Source: a virus
Strand: one strand, 5' to 3'
Length of the DNA: 23,691 bases
Virus record (IMG/VR): IMGVR_UViG_3300025736_000207
Coordinates: 1 to 23,691 of that record
How positions within the stretch are numbered: the stretch's first letter is position 1; each line of letters opens with the position of its first letter. The notes beneath the pieces were generated by a model. The model did not search any database, had not been told where the DNA came from, and worked only from the letters and a program-made list of their open reading frames with translations. Made by a program: the position numbers and the translations under genes. Below are positions 8,279-19,096 of this stretch, piece after piece.

Positions 8279-8332
8279 TGGGCAAGTTCGGAATTGAACC
8301 GACAAGGATTAGCCAAATTTCTCCACAAGCCC
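8279..8332 (-). ncRNA. tRNA-like element 1: acceptor, D arm and T arm, no anticodon arm
   Basis: Read on the minus strand, this 54-nt element starts GGGCTTG and ends CTTGCCC plus a discriminator A; the acceptor pairs in 5 of 7 positions, with two central U-U mismatches. A D-arm-like hairpin follows (GGA/TCC stem at 8324-8306, loop GAAATTTGGCTAA with the GG and flanking A expected of a D loop). Then, after only UU, comes a T arm (TCGG-TTCAATT-CCGA, 8302-8288) with the canonical B box GGTTCAATTCC. There is no anticodon arm. It lies in the leader of the tail chaperone gene, just after a terminator-like hairpin. A degenerate tRNA remnant is the main alternative. Confidence 0.6.
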
Positions 8333-9269: not shown

Positions 9270-9318
9270 AAGACATCACCCATTCGTTAATTTTATTCAT
9301 TTTATTCATTTTTTTCAT
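9262..9318 (-). CDS. Short ORF (18 aa) overlapping the start of the tail tube gene
   Basis: An ATG at 9318 overlaps the HNH stop as ATGA, and the frame reads MKKMNKMNKINEWVMSYF before TGA at 9262. It contains a tandem repeat of ATGAATAAAA. It could be a coupling leader peptide that brings ribosomes to the tail tube start, or the real N-terminus of the tail tube protein split by a one-base frameshift: +1 after TTC gives MSYF-ELGLPF, and loss of one T would give MSYSELGLPF. It is also possibly non-coding. Confidence 0.4.
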   Translation of the reverse strand: MKKMNKMNKINEWVMSYF

Positions 9319-9701
9319 TCTCCATTATTTTTATTTTTATTTTCGTTATAATGTAATTCACGATGACAGTTTGAACATATTAAAATACACTTATTCAATT
9401 CATTAGCAATTCGTATTACATTATTTCTCATTGATCTCATATCTATTTTAAACTTTTTATCTTCTGGACTGACATGGTGAAAATCAAGTGCCCAATCACA
9501 TTTATTATAACCACAAATAGCACATCCATTAATTTTTAAGTTGTGCAATGTTTGTATATCTTCTGTTTTATGTTTCAAATATCTCAAATGGTCATAACTG
9601 ATAATTTTATCAATATTATGCTTTCTATATGATTTAACATTGTTTTTAATATGTTCCTTATGCTTTTGATAATATCGTTTATCATCATCTTGTTTTGTCA
9701 T
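9315..9701 (-). CDS. HNH endonuclease (homing-type, 128 aa)
   Basis: The C-terminal half shows the HNH zinc-finger pattern: CAICG, then LDFHHVSPEDKKF, then ILICSNCHRELH, giving two Cys pairs and the catalytic His region. The N-terminal half is basic and helical (DDDKRYYQKHKEHIKNN), typical of DNA contact regions of phage HNH enzymes. It sits between two structural genes and is very rich in Lys and Asn, suggesting a mobile free-standing homing endonuclease. The start at 9701 follows the previous stop as TAATATG but has no clear ribosome site. Its insertion may explain the disturbed start of the tail tube gene downstream. Confidence 0.88.
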   Translation of the reverse strand: MTKQDDDKRYYQKHKEHIKNNVKSYRKHNIDKIISYDHLRYLKHKTEDIQTLHNLKINGCAICGYNKCDWALDFHHVSPEDKKFKIDMRSMRNNVIRIANELNKCILICSNCHRELHYNENKNKNNGE

Positions 9702-9702
9702 A

Positions 9703-10194
9703 TTAGCACGCATCATTGTTCTCTGCCGTTAATTCAAGTATCCAATGAAACATTGTTTCCTCACATCTTCCTTCTATTACTAATCTTCCTTCATTCCAAA
9801 CATTCATAAAGAATATTCCATCGGTTGCACCCTGATATGTTCTAACATAGTTAACAATTGCATCTGCAACTTTTTTACCAAATGAAGTAACGTCAATACC
9901 TTCTGCATCGTTAAATGTAATATCAACGCTAATTAATGCTTTATATTTTCTAACGGATGCATTAATATTGTGTGGATCAGCTTTAATTGACAATAAATCT
10001 AATCGTATAAACGGTGCTGCTGGACAATTAAGTTCAACTTTTTCACCTATCAACATTGGAACATTTACCGTATCACCACTACCATTTGTTACGGATATAC
10101 ATAATTGCATCTCATCATCAATTAAATGATTTGTACCAATTTTTGTACGAATGATTTTTCTAGGATCAATCCCATCAAATACACTAAACACCAT
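9703..10194 (-). CDS. Putative tail terminator / tail completion protein
   Basis: The protein has 163 aa: a beta-rich beginning (MQLCISVTNG, VELNCPAAPFIRLDLL) and then ALISVDITFNDAEG, FGKKVADAIVNYV and a final strand pair (RLVIEGRCEETMFHWILEL). The alternating alpha/beta layout and the place between the connector and the tail tube gene fit tail terminator or neck proteins. Identity is by synteny and overall pattern only. The start shares its A with the previous stop (TAATG). The HNH gene directly follows. Confidence 0.65.
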   Translation of the reverse strand: MVFSVFDGIDPRKIIRTKIGTNHLIDDEMQLCISVTNGSGDTVNVPMLIGEKVELNCPAAPFIRLDLLSIKADPHNINASVRKYKALISVDITFNDAEGIDVTSFGKKVADAIVNYVRTYQGATDGIFFMNVWNEGRLVIEGRCEETMFHWILELTAENNDAC

Positions 10195-11237
10195 TATCTG
10201 CCACTTCCTATATTTGGTTTTGAAATTGATTCAATTGTTGTAATATATCTATTCCATAATCTGTCAGTAAATGAAACCCTACCCCTTTCATCGCATCCTG
10301 TAACTTTCTTAGATGATAGATTTGATATAGTTGCAATTTCGAACGATGCAAGAAGTACAACAGCTTTTTTAAACAGTTGCTCGTTGTATGACTCCCATGT
10401 CGAATAATAGTTTACAAATATTCCCTCATTGCTTGCCGGAATTGCTGTAACACAATCAGCTTGATACACTTTGATATGTCCACATGTTGCATCAACAACC
10501 TCAACAGCGATATTTGAACATACACCATCGCCATCTTTCCATATGCCACATATATCATTTTGACATTCTTCCAATGCATCATCACATTCGCAACCATGCA
10601 CATTACCGTCAAGTTGTAAATCCATTATTGGTGTAGTATCTAACTGGTACCCGTCACTACATATGGGTGACGATTCTGTCGATATACAACCACCACATTC
10701 TGCATTAGAACTACATTGGCACGTGCCATCGACACATCTGCATAACTTTTCATGATAATGATACTCAGCTATTCTTTGTATAACTTCCTTAAATGAGTTC
10801 CAAGCAATTAATGCTACATCAGCATCTGATATTTTCTTTTTTGTTTGTTGTGAATATATCCTAATTTCGTCTATTATGTTCCAAGGCAATACGAAAAATT
10901 TTTCAGTAAATGTTGACGTATCCGCACCATCAATCGCCTTAACAACTATGTCATATTCACCATAAACTGCCGTATCAGATAACAAATATGAATATGAATA
11001 AACACCAGAACTTGAACTTGCCATAGATGCAGAATTTACAAGTACCGTATCGCATGGTGATGTAATAGTTATTGATACAGATGAGGGGTCAGTCAATGCT
11101 TCGGCTGTATCTCTTAATGTAACTTGATGAAATACTGATTCTCCACGTTCAAATATTGCCATGATATCATTTCCGTAATTTTTTTTACTAACTGTAACTT
11201 TTGTGCTTATTAATGGATCTGCCGTTAATTTTGTCAT
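10194..11237 (-). CDS. Cys-rich head-tail connector candidate with Ig-like N-terminal domain
   Basis: The protein has 347 aa. Residues ~15-120 look Ig-like (SVSITITSPCDTVLVN, then GVYSYSYLLSDTAVYGEYDIVVKA). A helical segment follows (WNIIDEIRIYSQQTKKKISDADVALIAWNSFKEVIQRIAEY) like the helices of gp6-type connectors. Next is an insert with 14 of the protein's 16 cysteines (CRCVDGTCQCSSNAECGGC and CECDDALEECQNDICG), then more helix (LFKKAVVLLASFEIATI). The position after capsid and before tail terminator supports a connector role. The start at 11237 overlaps the previous stop (TAATG) and has AAGGG upstream. The Cys-rich insert is unusual for a neck protein and could be a disulfide-rich or metal-binding loop. 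Confidence 0.65.
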   Translation of the reverse strand: MTKLTADPLISTKVTVSKKNYGNDIMAIFERGESVFHQVTLRDTAEALTDPSSVSITITSPCDTVLVNSASMASSSSGVYSYSYLLSDTAVYGEYDIVVKAIDGADTSTFTEKFFVLPWNIIDEIRIYSQQTKKKISDADVALIAWNSFKEVIQRIAEYHYHEKLCRCVDGTCQCSSNAECGGCISTESSPICSDGYQLDTTPIMDLQLDGNVHGCECDDALEECQNDICGIWKDGDGVCSNIAVEVVDATCGHIKVYQADCVTAIPASNEGIFVNYYSTWESYNEQLFKKAVVLLASFEIATISNLSSKKVTGCDERGRVSFTDRLWNRYITTIESISKPNIGSGR

Positions 11238-11920
11238 TATAACCCTTCCCAAAATTTAGGAATGTTTTTCTGATATCTGAAAATTCCTAATGCAAACTTA
11301 AATGCATGATAAAATGCAATAAGTTCGTCATATGATTTTTCTACTATTTTCATTTTACCGTCACGAATTTGCAAAACAACCGCACCATCTAACTTCACAC
11401 CAGTCATAAGTTCAAATGTAAATACATAAGCTGCAAGTTGTATAAAGAAATCGTTGTAAACTGTTTTGCTTGATTTCCAATCAAATATAACATGTGCATC
11501 TTTACCTAGTTTTTTTAAATCAGCACGACCTATAAAATCGGCAGTACCAGCAAAACCTAAGTGGCTATTCCATACTTTTTGTTCTAGTGCCTCGGCCCTA
11601 ATGTTATATTTTTCTTTTGCAATATTGAACAGTCTCAATGATTCTTGCATTTCATCACTATACTTTGATGCATCAACACTATGACCTTGTAAAGATACTT
11701 CAATTAACTTATGTAGGTTTGTACCAAAAGTACCACGTATTTTCATTATTTTGTTTGCCTCAAACTGTCCAATACTTGCACGCCAGTAATTTAATCCTGG
11801 CTGGTTGATTGAACTTTTAACTCTAGTAATTCTGAAATATTTTTTACCTTCTATTGTATATGAATCAGAATCAACTAGAAGTTCTAATGGAACATCTATT
11901 TTCCACGATTTATTTAACAT
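11237..11920 (-). CDS. PD-(D/E)XK nuclease, Cas4/RecB-like
   Basis: In this 227-aa protein (from the ATG at 11920) the motif order is G-LH near residues 66-70 (GTNLHKLIE), GTADFIG with Asp128, VIFDWKSSK with Asp147 and Lys149, then QLAAY (Gln161, Tyr165). This is the arrangement of RecB/Cas4-family nucleases. The four cysteines of a Cas4 iron-sulfur cluster are not seen. It may process viral DNA during recombination or packaging. It is oddly placed between capsid and connector genes and behind its own terminator and tRNA-like element. Start: the ATG at 11920 has no Shine-Dalgarno, but it is 1 nt from the end of that element; an in-frame ATG at 11950 lies inside the T arm and has no ribosome site either. 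Confidence 0.83.
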   Translation of the reverse strand: MLNKSWKIDVPLELLVDSDSYTIEGKKYFRITRVKSSINQPGLNYWRASIGQFEANKIMKIRGTFGTNLHKLIEVSLQGHSVDASKYSDEMQESLRLFNIAKEKYNIRAEALEQKVWNSHLGFAGTADFIGRADLKKLGKDAHVIFDWKSSKTVYNDFFIQLAAYVFTFELMTGVKLDGAVVLQIRDGKMKIVEKSYDELIAFYHAFKFALGIFRYQKNIPKFWEGL

Positions 11921-11921
11921 A

Positions 11922-11970
11922 TTTCTATTCCAGGATTTGAACCTGTACATACCAAAAATAAAAAATAGAG
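11922..11970 (-). ncRNA. tRNA-like element 2 ahead of the nuclease gene
   Basis: The minus strand carries a T arm CAGG-TTCAAAT-CCTG (11945-11931) with the exact B box GGTTCAAATCC. The following AATAGAA (11929-11923) pairs with CTCTATT (11970-11964) in 6 of 7 positions, as an acceptor stem would. Between them lies TTTTTGGTATG, with the GG of a D loop but no clear D stem, and there is no anticodon arm. The 5' acceptor strand overlaps the T-rich tract of the capsid terminator. If the element were cut after the discriminator A (11922), the nuclease mRNA would begin U-AUG. The acceptor pairing is AT-rich and could be chance; the T arm is clear. Confidence 0.5.
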
Positions 11971-11991
11971 AGAAGGTAGGAAAAACCTACC
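11954..11991 (-). terminator. Terminator after the major capsid gene
   Basis: A perfect 6-bp stem GGTAGG-TTTTT-CCTACC (11991-11975) is followed by TTCTCTCTATTTTTTATTTTT. It begins 14 nt after the capsid stop. It would limit transcription beyond the most strongly needed gene and stabilise its mRNA end. Confidence 0.75.
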
Positions 11992-12004: not shown

Positions 12005-13309
12005 TCAAGGATTGACCACATGTCCGATTGCACCGGTATCAAGTGCACCAATTGCGAGATATGACCTCATGACTAATTTTGTACTGTCACATTCAATTGG
12101 GTCTTTATCTGTTAATAGGTGTGGTCTTTTACCGTATGCTTCACCAATTGCACGTTCAGGGTCAACCATAACCGCAGCTACACCACCTAATGCGAAATCA
12201 TCACAAGAGTTTGCACCGCAGTATTCAATAACTTTTATGTTACCAATTTTAACTAGGGTGTTTCCTTCCATTTCAATTTCATTTGCCCAAGGTGGCATTG
12301 TACCGCCCTCTTTGTATTTAAGGTATGTTGCGACTCTTGGATTTAAGATTAGGAAAAATCCTTTGCTACCATATCCAGCGTTACGCATTTGTGCTTCCAG
12401 TTCAATTACTTCTTTGTACAACTGAGCACCGTACATACAACACTCGGTAGATGGTGCCGCAGGGTTACATGATAATGATACCTCAGATGTTTCAGTATAT
12501 CCAGGTGTTGCATCGCTCATTGCAGTCCAAATCAAACTATCAATACCAGAAATAAATGCTCGACTCATTGATTCTATAATTGCCGCCTTAACTGAATCAC
12601 CAACGTCAAATACATCAAGTTCACAAAGAACCTTGTAAATATCATATCGTGCTAATGTTAATGTGTGTGTTGTAAATACGTTAGATGAACAGCTTGCACA
12701 TTCACATTTTGATAATGCACTACCCATTGAACTTGCGTTTATCGTTTTTATTTGAACAGATAAACCGTTACCTGCATTTATATCACATGCCCTTTGCGTA
12801 ACGATACCAGATAATTGTTTACCGCACTGCGCTGCTTGCCAAATTAAATCACAATAAACATCGGCAGGCGACCATGCACTCATGTCATCATCACAACCGG
12901 TATCTGAATCCGAAAATGCAAATCCAAGTTCATCTGTCACAAGAGCAACTTGGTTATATGAAACCCTATCAATGGCTTTTCCTTTCAAATACTGCGCATG
13001 AAAAGATTCCCATTTCCCTTCCGGTATCCCTTTCGTTGTATCACCTGCATTTAAATCCGGTGACTGCTCACTGGTATCTTGCAAATTGTATTTTTTTGCC
13101 ATTGCCGCTTCAAACTCTTCACGTTCGTTTATTTTATCAGCTTCAATTTTATCGGCTGCAATTTTTGCTTTTTCTGCGTCTACTGCATTTGCTTGTGCAA
13201 CTATGTCAGCTTCTAACGCTACCGTTTTAGCTAACATTGCAGTTTTATACCTTGCCTCAACTTCTGCAAGGGTTTCTTCATCATTTGTCATGTCTATCCT
13301 ATTCTCCAT
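12005..13309 (-). CDS. Major capsid protein (HK97-like) with N-terminal coiled coil
   Basis: The protein has 434 aa. Residues ~8-75 are Ala/Glu/Lys-rich coiled coil (LAEVEARYKTAMLAKTVALE and so on), like the delta/scaffold domain of HK97 capsid proteins, so no separate scaffold gene is needed. The rest has the HK97-like pattern with VKAAIIESMSRAFISGIDSLIW, KGFFLILNPRVATYLKYKEGG and a C-terminal VMVDPERAIGEAYGKRP. The gene follows the protease gene and precedes a terminator, both expected. It holds 14 cysteines, with clusters KCECASC and ECCMYG, which is unusual for a capsid and suggests disulfides or metal sites. Start: the ATG at 13309 has AAGGA upstream but overlaps the protease gene by 11 nt; the ATG at 13291 (MTNDEE) with AGGAT is equally good. 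Confidence 0.87.
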   Translation of the reverse strand: MENRIDMTNDEETLAEVEARYKTAMLAKTVALEADIVAQANAVDAEKAKIAADKIEADKINEREEFEAAMAKKYNLQDTSEQSPDLNAGDTTKGIPEGKWESFHAQYLKGKAIDRVSYNQVALVTDELGFAFSDSDTGCDDDMSAWSPADVYCDLIWQAAQCGKQLSGIVTQRACDINAGNGLSVQIKTINASSMGSALSKCECASCSSNVFTTHTLTLARYDIYKVLCELDVFDVGDSVKAAIIESMSRAFISGIDSLIWTAMSDATPGYTETSEVSLSCNPAAPSTECCMYGAQLYKEVIELEAQMRNAGYGSKGFFLILNPRVATYLKYKEGGTMPPWANEIEMEGNTLVKIGNIKVIEYCGANSCDDFALGGVAAVMVDPERAIGEAYGKRPHLLTDKDPIECDSTKLVMRSYLAIGALDTGAIGHVVNP

Positions 13310-14887: not shown

Positions 14888-15574
14888 CTACTTTGCCTTT
14901 TTTACAGATTTACAACTTTTGCACTCGCATGTTGATTCTTTAATCTTTTTTGCAGCATTTTCATCAATTTTCTTTTTGATGCCTTTTACAAAATCTCTAT
15001 CTTTTTGTGTCATCTTATCTGCTGCTTTTTCAAATATTACCTGTTCTGCTGATTTTGATGATTTAATTGCTCTATCGCCACGTATTTTTGATAAATCATC
15101 AGATGGTGCCCGTTTTAAAAGTTGGTCAAGTAATGATCTTAAATTTTTCATACTGTCAATATATTCATCATATCTCTGCGACAGTTGTCCTTTTGAAATA
15201 ATATTTGCTTGTTTTAGTGTTTCAACTTCACCCGTTATTTTTTTTGCAACATCCTTCATATCATTTAGAGGTAGAAATAAATTAGCCGTAACTTTTTGCA
15301 TTGCAGCACCTTTTATTTTACCATCCAACATTGCTTGTGCAACCTCATTACCTTTTTGGACACTTGTATCGGTATCAATACATTGCTTTAAAAGGCCAGC
15401 TACATTGTTGCTTAATGTAACCATTTCTTTAAATCTGTTAACATCATTGGTATTCAATGTTCGTATTGGATAGTTTTTAAATAATTCTGTTCTAGTTGTT
15501 AATGGTTTTGGTATAGATTCAACTGCTTTTTTTGCTGGTTGTATATTTGAACGTGCACGACTTCCTTTTGCCAT
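14888..15574 (-). CDS. Hypothetical coiled-coil protein with C-terminal Cys motif (228 aa)
   Basis: The protein is Lys-rich and helical. It begins MAKGSRARSNIQPAKKA, has long amphipathic helices (MVTLSNNVAGLLKQCI, LFLPLNDMKDVAKKITGEVE, YIDSMKNLRSLLDQLLK) and ends with a CECKSCKS cluster that could bind a metal. The start at 15574 has GAGGTG upstream and follows the previous stop by one base (TGATATG). It may be a DNA-binding packaging factor or an internal head protein; both are guesses. No known family is recognised. Confidence 0.75.
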   Translation of the reverse strand: MAKGSRARSNIQPAKKAVESIPKPLTTRTELFKNYPIRTLNTNDVNRFKEMVTLSNNVAGLLKQCIDTDTSVQKGNEVAQAMLDGKIKGAAMQKVTANLFLPLNDMKDVAKKITGEVETLKQANIISKGQLSQRYDEYIDSMKNLRSLLDQLLKRAPSDDLSKIRGDRAIKSSKSAEQVIFEKAADKMTQKDRDFVKGIKKKIDENAAKKIKESTCECKSCKSVKKAK

Positions 15575-15575
15575 A

Positions 15576-15740
15576 TCATGCACCTCGTGTATTTAGATAT
15601 TTGGCTAGATTTTTAACCTGTTCGGCATTAAAAGGAATTTGCGTTTTGCCTTCTATTATATACATTATTCCTTTTTTTGTATCTTCCTTAATTTGCGGAC
15701 AACAATTCTTTCTACCACATAGACTTATCACATTACTCAT
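15576..15740 (-). CDS. Small CGRxxCCP protein (54 aa)
   Basis: This short protein begins MSNVISLCGRKNCCPQIKED and ends with a helix (FNAEQVKNLAKYLNTRGA). The CGR-CCP cluster followed by a small beta part and a helix is a pattern I associate with small phage proteins of unknown role; the three cysteines suggest a metal site. GGAG lies 10 nt upstream of the ATG at 15740, which is preferred over an in-frame ATG at 15821 lying inside the previous gene and across the tRNA-like element. It overlaps nothing and is followed by the 228-aa gene after 1 nt. Confidence 0.72.
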   Translation of the reverse strand: MSNVISLCGRKNCCPQIKEDTKKGIMYIIEGKTQIPFNAEQVKNLAKYLNTRGA

Positions 15741-15766
15741 TTTACATTTCTCCTTTTTTAATATTA

Positions 15767-15802
15767 GGGTATGGGAGGGAATCGAACCCTCAACATCACA
15801 CC
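15767..15802 (-). ncRNA. tRNA-like element 3: acceptor/T-arm minihelix
   Basis: The minus strand has a perfect T arm GAGGG-TTCGATT-CCCTC (15791-15775) with the B box GGTTCGATTCC. The next seven bases CCATACC pair with GGTGTGA (15802-15796) in 6 of 7 positions including one G-U, leaving only TGTT as a linker. This forms an acceptor/T-arm minihelix of 36 nt without D or anticodon arms. It starts 2 nt after the stop of the gp10-like gene and lies in the leader of the 54-aa gene. Confidence 0.58.
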
Positions 15803-15804
15803 AT

Positions 15805-16200
15805 TTATTTATTAAATCCAATAAATAGTCTCTTTATCCTATCTGAAAATGCTTCATTCATAAGAAACAACGCTGGCCTCATGAACGGCCTAAATGCTGG
15901 TTTACCGGATGTACTTGTTACAGCTTTTGGTGATTCTGGTGTTCCAACTTTCATATACATTGTGCCATATTCTTGATAAATTGCCCAAGGAACGCCAACG
16001 ATAATTTTAAAACCAGCGACACCCATTTTTACATATTTTATCGAGTTACTCATTTCACCTTTATCGACAGCGGCATATCTGCGCATTAATGAAACTGTAT
16101 CTTTCACAATCCCTTCATGTATATTTACATATTCCGAAGTCTTTGCCACCTTTTTATTAAATCGAATTGCACCATACAATCCAGTAACTTTTAAACTCAT
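15805..16200 (-). CDS. HK97-gp10-like protein (tail/neck completion)
   Basis: The 131-aa protein shows the typical gp10-family end: VPWAIYQEYGTMYMKVGTPE, then KPAFRPFMRPALFLMNEAF. The N-terminal part is helical (EGIVKDTVSLMRRYAAVDKG). Members are neck or tail-completion proteins in HK97-like viruses. Here it lies next to the portal instead of after the capsid gene, an unusual order. The start overlaps the portal stop by ATGA with GAGGA upstream. A tRNA-like element follows the stop by 2 nt. Confidence 0.82.
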   Translation of the reverse strand: MSLKVTGLYGAIRFNKKVAKTSEYVNIHEGIVKDTVSLMRRYAAVDKGEMSNSIKYVKMGVAGFKIIVGVPWAIYQEYGTMYMKVGTPESPKAVTSTSGKPAFRPFMRPALFLMNEAFSDRIKRLFIGFNK

Positions 16201-19080: not shown

Positions 19081-19096
19081 TATATAAACCTTTCGG
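19081..19096 (-). promoter_or_regulatory. Late-block promoter (BRE + TATA, minus strand)
   Basis: The minus strand reads CCGAAAGGTTTATATA: a purine-rich BRE followed by TATA box TTTATATA, a textbook archaeal promoter. It is 60 nt upstream of the terminase start, with predicted initiation near 19058. GAAAGGTTTATATA recurs exactly at 22714-22727 on the plus strand. Confidence 0.8.

Follow-up and report, generated by a model that had tools for sequence, protein, structure and literature searches.

A tRNA-derived minihelix directly before a viral nuclease gene, probably kept as a signal for RNA processing

In this study, a stretch of viral DNA of 23,691 nucleotides (positions 1 to 23,691 of IMG/VR record IMGVR_UViG_3300025736_000207, hereafter the window) was found to carry, between its capsid and nuclease genes, a tRNA-like acceptor/T-arm minihelix, E1 (11922-11970, minus strand), which ends one base before the nuclease start codon. 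From comparison with related genomes, we consider it fairly probable that E1 is a viral tRNA-Thr gene cut down to the domain used in end processing and kept as a signal for tRNase Z, and perhaps for RNase P, so that the nuclease mRNA would begin 5'-U-AUG. The broader proposal, to which we give an even chance, is that this lineage has repeatedly turned tRNA genes into non-decoding half-tRNA signals, at which host enzymes would cut the late transcript into messages, including a leaderless 5'-U-AUG nuclease mRNA formed solely from terminator read-through. The evidence for E1, being comparative, is carried by its conserved position, as complete tRNA-Thr genes of relatives stand in the same place and with the same spacing to the ATG.

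On the minus strand, E1 together with the start codon reads CTCTATTTTTTATTTTTGGTATGTACAGGTTCAAATCCTGGAATAGAAATATG (11970-11918). Its T stem and loop are ACAGG-TTCAAAT-CCTGG (11946-11930), of which four stem pairs form (CAGG-TTCAAAT-CCTG), its 3' acceptor strand is AATAGAA (11929-11923) and its discriminator is the A at 11922, followed by a spacer U at 11921 and the nuclease ATG at 11920-11918. The 5' acceptor strand can be placed in two ways, either as CTCTATT (11970-11964), with six Watson-Crick pairs and a linker of 17, or as TTTTATT (11963-11957), with seven pairs including one G-U and a linker of 10. With its TTCRANN T loop, G53-C61 closure, T stem of 4-5 bp and adjoining 7-bp acceptor, E1 is by structure a tRNA-derived minihelix, and its computed nearest-neighbour minimum free energy (MFE) fold is other than the minihelix. 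ARAGORN and Rfam did not report E1 when run on the window. The anticodon and D arms are absent, the gap from acceptor to T arm being just 10-17 nt, and the archaeal threonine identity elements (U73, G1-C72 and C2-G71; PMC9976931) are also missing, with A73 and an A/U-rich acceptor in their place. Because the anticodon arm and the identity elements were tested for and are absent, E1 is not a functional tRNA.

The nuclease gene (11237-11920, minus strand) encodes 227 aa from ATG 11920 and matches PHROG 298 exonuclease, with a weak PD-(D/E)XK match. The earlier note, which had proposed that E1 could create a leaderless nuclease mRNA, left the ATG at 11950 as an alternative start. That candidate lies just 5' of the T arm and reads through it, and it was rejected because the N-termini of homologous nucleases, which start MLNKSW or MLKKDW, align at ATG 11920. 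No Shine-Dalgarno sequence precedes either ATG in the window, as had been said of 11920, although the contrast drawn with most genes was overstated, since a clear one is missing at several other late-gene starts as well. Upstream of the nuclease is the capsid gene (12005-13309, minus strand), which has no PHROG or Pfam match and was assigned by its place between the portal and tail genes and by its conservation in the family. A terminator-like hairpin followed by a T-rich tract lies 3' of the capsid gene (11975-11991, minus strand), an arrangement that recurs after the capsid gene in relatives, and E1 is located within and past its T-rich tail, where the earlier note had placed it.

About 20 related, likewise uncultivated viruses that share the late gene order were recovered by scans with multi-sequence terminase and capsid alignments; single-protein scans with capsid and nuclease queries returned one relative or none. 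Complete tRNA-Thr(UGU) genes occupy the capsid/nuclease boundary in L002 (IMGVR_UViG_3300033145_000588, with terminase 86% and capsid 64-65% identical to the window), L056, L057 and L150, and those of the first three contain U73, G1-C72 and C2-G71. Minihelices without D and anticodon arms stand at this site in the window, L053 and L156. The L053 minihelix (GCTGATA - 13 nt - CTCTG.TTCGATT.CGGAG TGTCGGC) matches the tRNA-Thr of L002 in both acceptor strands and the T arm, with 28 nt of the middle missing, while in L156 (GCCAATG - 11 nt - TAAGG.TTCGACT.CCTTA TATTGGC) the nuclease, now about 740 nt away from the capsid gene, still has the element directly before it. In all seven of these genomes the discriminator, one U and the AUG follow each other with identical spacing. 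The tRNA-like nature of E1, its discriminator at 11922 and the geometry of a 1-nt leader (U before AUG), all put forward in the earlier note, are therefore borne out by conservation in six related viruses. The U-AUG opens the nuclease in the window, L002, L053 and L156, and a small ORF of about 40 aa ahead of the nuclease in L056, L057 and L150; this small ORF, the intact tRNA-Thr or tRNA-Ala genes of relatives at the same sites, and the fact that E1 is one of three such elements in the window had escaped the earlier note.

The boundary is arranged differently in other relatives. In L145, L058, L149 and L166 an element is present, followed by a leader of 20-30 nt with a Shine-Dalgarno, and in about nine relatives, including L055, L059, L146, L151, L154 and L155, no recognisable element was found at this boundary, its role being taken in several of them by a simple hairpin with a Shine-Dalgarno nearby. 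Since a simple hairpin takes the same place in element-free relatives (L059, L151, L154, L146 and L155, mostly followed by a Shine-Dalgarno 3-4 nt before the ATG), a structure just upstream of the start codon may be favored for its own sake, and the minihelix could gate translation at the AUG or stabilise the downstream RNA with no processing at all. Some mRNA leaders are known to contain tRNA-like operators, for example that of E. coli thrS (PMC9976931), and GGAG or GGTG inside the elements of L053, L056 and L057 offers a possible Shine-Dalgarno on uncut RNA. We nevertheless regard an uncut element as improbable: the anticodon arm that operators of the thrS type mimic is exactly the part missing from E1, the complete tRNA-Thr sites need the RNA to be cut at maturation if the tRNA is used, and the window offers no Shine-Dalgarno for translating the uncut RNA.

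Some further structures were noticed after capsid genes. At the E1 position, L058 (6850-6965) and L149 (6320-6400) harbor a longer tRNA-like element, with about 60-80 nt from acceptor to T arm, common inner motifs AGGGTCATGGTTA and a hairpin TGAGN, which may be either a tRNA that has a long arm or an intron, or a structured RNA of another kind. The small hairpin that replaces the tRNA element before the first post-capsid ORF of L059, L151 and L154 has a common loop, TTTCTCATAAACT, with stems that are changed yet paired (ATACC/GGTAT, AATCA/TGATT), and an SD-like GAGG occurs 3-4 nt before the ATG in two of the three. L144 displays a minihelix-like sequence after its capsid gene, TCCTCA ... TATTGG-TGCAATT-CCAATA TGAGGA, then AAT ATG; the T loop, TGCAATT, is non-standard.

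Two more elements were observed at other boundaries of the window. E2 (15767-15802, minus strand) is an acceptor/T-arm minihelix, GGTGTGA TGTT GAGGG-TTCGATT-CCCTC CCATACC with discriminator C, whose MFE fold is exactly the minihelix, and a Shine-Dalgarno leader and ATG 15740 come after it. In each of the three genomes with an element at the E2 site (the window, L002 and L050) this element is a minihelix, the sequences being unrelated. Apart from a 17-nt match of E2 to the T arm of tmRNA, Rfam returned nothing beyond chance matches, even in a relaxed search. E3 (8279-8332, minus strand), which follows the hairpin of the major tail protein gene and precedes a Shine-Dalgarno leader (GAGGT) and ATG 8263, is derived from tRNA-Ala; it retains acceptor, D-arm-like and T-arm parts and lacks the anticodon arm, and in the copy of the window the G3-U70 pair is gone and two U-U mismatches occur. 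At the corresponding boundary a complete tRNA-Ala(UGC) with G3-U70 is found in L002, and the same reduced form in L154; the three boundaries of L002 thus contain the complete tRNA-Thr(UGU), the E2-site minihelix of different sequence and the complete tRNA-Ala. L154, whose copy lies at 10320-10385, shares about 44% terminase identity with the window, while L002, a much closer relative, has the complete gene.

These losses bear on a reading in which the elements would act in trans as small tRNA-like RNAs, either charged half-tRNAs or decoys of tRNA enzymes, with their position before genes being secondary. Minihelices can be substrates of the CCA-adding enzyme and of some synthetases (PMC3714273; PMC9976931), but E1 is without the archaeal threonine determinants, E3 in the window without the G3-U70 of tRNA-Ala, and the AUG spacing would be left unexplained, so that we think a trans-acting role very unlikely.

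Beside these boundaries, an antisense ORF of the window (15532-15828, plus strand) ends in VWEGIEPSTSHHL, which is a reading of the E2 T arm; false ORFs of this kind are common beside tRNA genes. Free-standing HNH endonuclease genes occupy different late boundaries in the window (9315-9716, minus strand) and in L002 (10672-11082), and the HNH ATG of L002 is 2 nt past the tRNA-Ala discriminator. Again, a direct repeat of 194 nt with 73% identity (360-553 and 690-883), probably a duplicated structural domain, lies within the last late gene of the window.

When the boundary states were placed on the capsid tree, the complete tRNA-Thr was found on widely separated branches and the minihelices of the window, L053 and L156 on separate ones; this scatter suggests several independent reductions or losses of the element, with some forks of the tree being weak. 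The main rival to processing, which we judge unlikely, is decay with inherited position, whereby the decoding tRNA-Thr and tRNA-Ala genes of relatives would have lost their middles in the window and now drift without function, the 1-nt spacing being inherited and the nuclease being translated from a long read-through mRNA. Intact tRNAs at the same sites in relatives, the T stem of only four pairs and non-significant acceptor pairing of E1, the U-U mismatches of E3 and the whole loss of the element in several relatives would all fit such pseudogenes. They would not lead one to expect that the same acceptor and T-arm parts survive on separate branches, that the T-loop consensus, paired stems and exact spacing are kept despite a wholly changed acceptor sequence in the window, or that the E2 site has a minihelix in three of three genomes, and the nuclease of the window has kept no Shine-Dalgarno.

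Regarding chance, a T arm of the quality of E1 under the strict definition is expected at 5.7e-6 per position in first-order random sequence of the window's composition. Three were seen in the window (11941, 15786 and 8298), all on the late strand and all at gene boundaries, against about 0.27 expected on both strands, and the 34 related records (617 kb) contain 25 against 7.8 in shuffles. The acceptor pairing of E1 taken alone is not significant (p = 0.20) in a shuffle test of low power, in which two tRNAs called by ARAGORN score p = 0.15-0.26; combined over seven degenerate elements it reaches p = 0.0014. In a set of 15 trimmed elements, standard pairs make up 93% of cells, compared with 54% when shuffled and 35-50% when slid, and each of the 12 pairs has changed on both sides; covariation is overstated in this test, the 5' acceptor strand of each minihelix having been selected for best pairing, a choice from which the T arms and complete tRNAs are free. 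Thermodynamic z-scores are weak for most elements. Short T-arm motifs do arise by chance, and tRNA genes are frequently used for integration by archaeal proviruses (PMC8651126), in which case an att site would resemble a tRNA 3' half. Either origin is nonetheless hard to credit here and is the least probable of the readings considered, given the excess in the window, the homologous elements, full tRNAs among them, at the same boundaries in relatives, the presence of both acceptor strands in the better elements, and the lack of any recognised integrase among the genes searched, a subset of the ORFs of the window and of partial relatives.

Similar structures were also met farther away. T arms in relatives with about 25% terminase identity (L040, L047 and others) were set aside, as their contexts are unrelated. 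One of these, at L047:1704 (minus strand; 25% terminase identity, GC 0.51), is an intergenic minihelix-like CGGGGCA-18 nt-GTCGG.TTCGAGT.CCGAC TGTCCCA, and since it comes from a very distant viral contig, reduced intergenic tRNAs may have a wider distribution. In a non-late region of L123 (13475-13560, minus strand; about position 33526 of IMGVR_UViG_3300025698_000002), a tRNA-like element that ARAGORN misses follows a hairpin, with possible D, anticodon-like and T arms, and ends A-CU-AUG before a 10-codon ORF overlapping an SD-led gene.

A BRE/TATA-type archaeal promoter, GAAAGGTTTATATA, was detected before the late operon of the window (19081-19094, minus strand, upstream of terminase) and, with variation, in L002, L053, L055, L056 and L059, whereas no motif of this kind was seen at the nuclease boundary and sigma-70 promoters showed no excess over shuffles. 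BRE/TATA elements at operon starts occur here together with a tailed-phage gene set, as expected of an archaeal tailed virus, and these promoters and the archaeal threonine identity of the tRNA-Thr genes make an archaeal host likely on sequence grounds; no provirus was found in cellular genomes. The capsid and tail-protein genes end in hairpins with T-rich tails, and as E1 and E3 lie beyond them, only read-through transcripts would carry these two elements. From the gene order, E1 would be co-transcribed with the nuclease.

The processing that we favor would proceed as follows. A viral tRNA-Thr gene between capsid and nuclease would be the ancestor of E1, which in the window retains only the portion recognised by the enzymes of tRNA end processing, its acceptor stem and T arm. 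Transcription continuing past the capsid terminator would yield an RNA in which the half-tRNA folds; host tRNase Z would cut 3' of the discriminator at 11922, with an RNase P cut possible at the 5' side, and the resulting 5'-p-U-AUG end would be translated as a leaderless message. We infer this folding, cleavage and translation in vivo from the homologous position, the identical spacing in seven genomes, the loss of decoding parts and the family-wide retention of acceptor and T-arm pairing; as the element ends one base before the start codon in all seven, host tRNase Z probably releases the nuclease message. For both RNase P and tRNase Z, the coaxial acceptor/T-arm half of tRNA is an accepted substrate (PMC3714273), and an element selected for processing and not for decoding would keep just the half that the enzymes recognise and a fixed AUG spacing, as is seen. 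By geometry, the predicted product has a 1-nt leader, inside the 0-5 nt before the start codon by which leaderless transcripts were defined in Haloferax (PMC4983044). The statement in the earlier note that leaderless mRNAs are well translated in archaea is host-dependent, as 72% of Haloferax volcanii transcripts are leaderless and about 11-16% in two methanogens (PMC4983044).

The closest likeness is to the t-element of Haloferax volcanii (Hoelzle et al. 2008, 2012, as cited in PMC4326828), an archaeal tRNA-like structure directly 5' of another RNA, where according to that account a tRNase Z cut on the 3' side makes the 5' end of 5S rRNA; such tRNA-like elements are employed as processing tags (PMC4946936). 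E1 has the same immediate placement, its discriminator being one base from the AUG in seven genomes, and its cut is predicted. As the t-element is described there, it differs in that its downstream RNA is 5S rRNA in a cellular operon, whereas that of E1 is a viral mRNA with the AUG one base past the predicted cut, and E1 is derived from a real tRNA gene that is intact in relatives.

In animal mitochondria, functional tRNAs lie between most genes of the polycistronic RNA, and their excision leaves near-leaderless mRNAs. The viral elements likewise place tRNAs between genes, and their excision would leave almost no leader, but the virus has them at only three operon boundaries and partly reduced to non-decoding minihelices. 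We liken E1 to the t-element or to a mitochondrial punctuation tRNA by analogy and do not assign it to either processing system. Tailed archaeal viruses such as HGTV-1, with 36 tRNA genes (PMC8651126), also encode tRNAs, as do L002, L056, L057 and L150 with canonical tRNA-Thr and L002 also with tRNA-Ala; in contrast, there are one or two per genome here, inside the late operon behind terminator-like hairpins and in several genomes reduced below decoding ability. Archaeal leaderless mRNAs, whose AUG is within 0-5 nt of the 5' end with no Shine-Dalgarno (PMC4983044), resemble the predicted nuclease message, though in their case transcription begins at the start codon or close to it, while the 5' end of the nuclease message would come from processing. 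A search mostly outside the subscription literature found no published tRNA punctuation in archaeal viruses.

The related genomes form a series from a complete viral tRNA, through an armless tRNA, to a minihelix of acceptor and T arm, in which the distance to the following start codon is kept. This suggests that viral tRNA genes may be retained for RNA cutting instead of decoding, and that leaderless mRNAs could arise in archaea by processing, as in mitochondria. If true, it would give the virus a means of keeping nuclease output low beside a presumably very highly expressed capsid gene.
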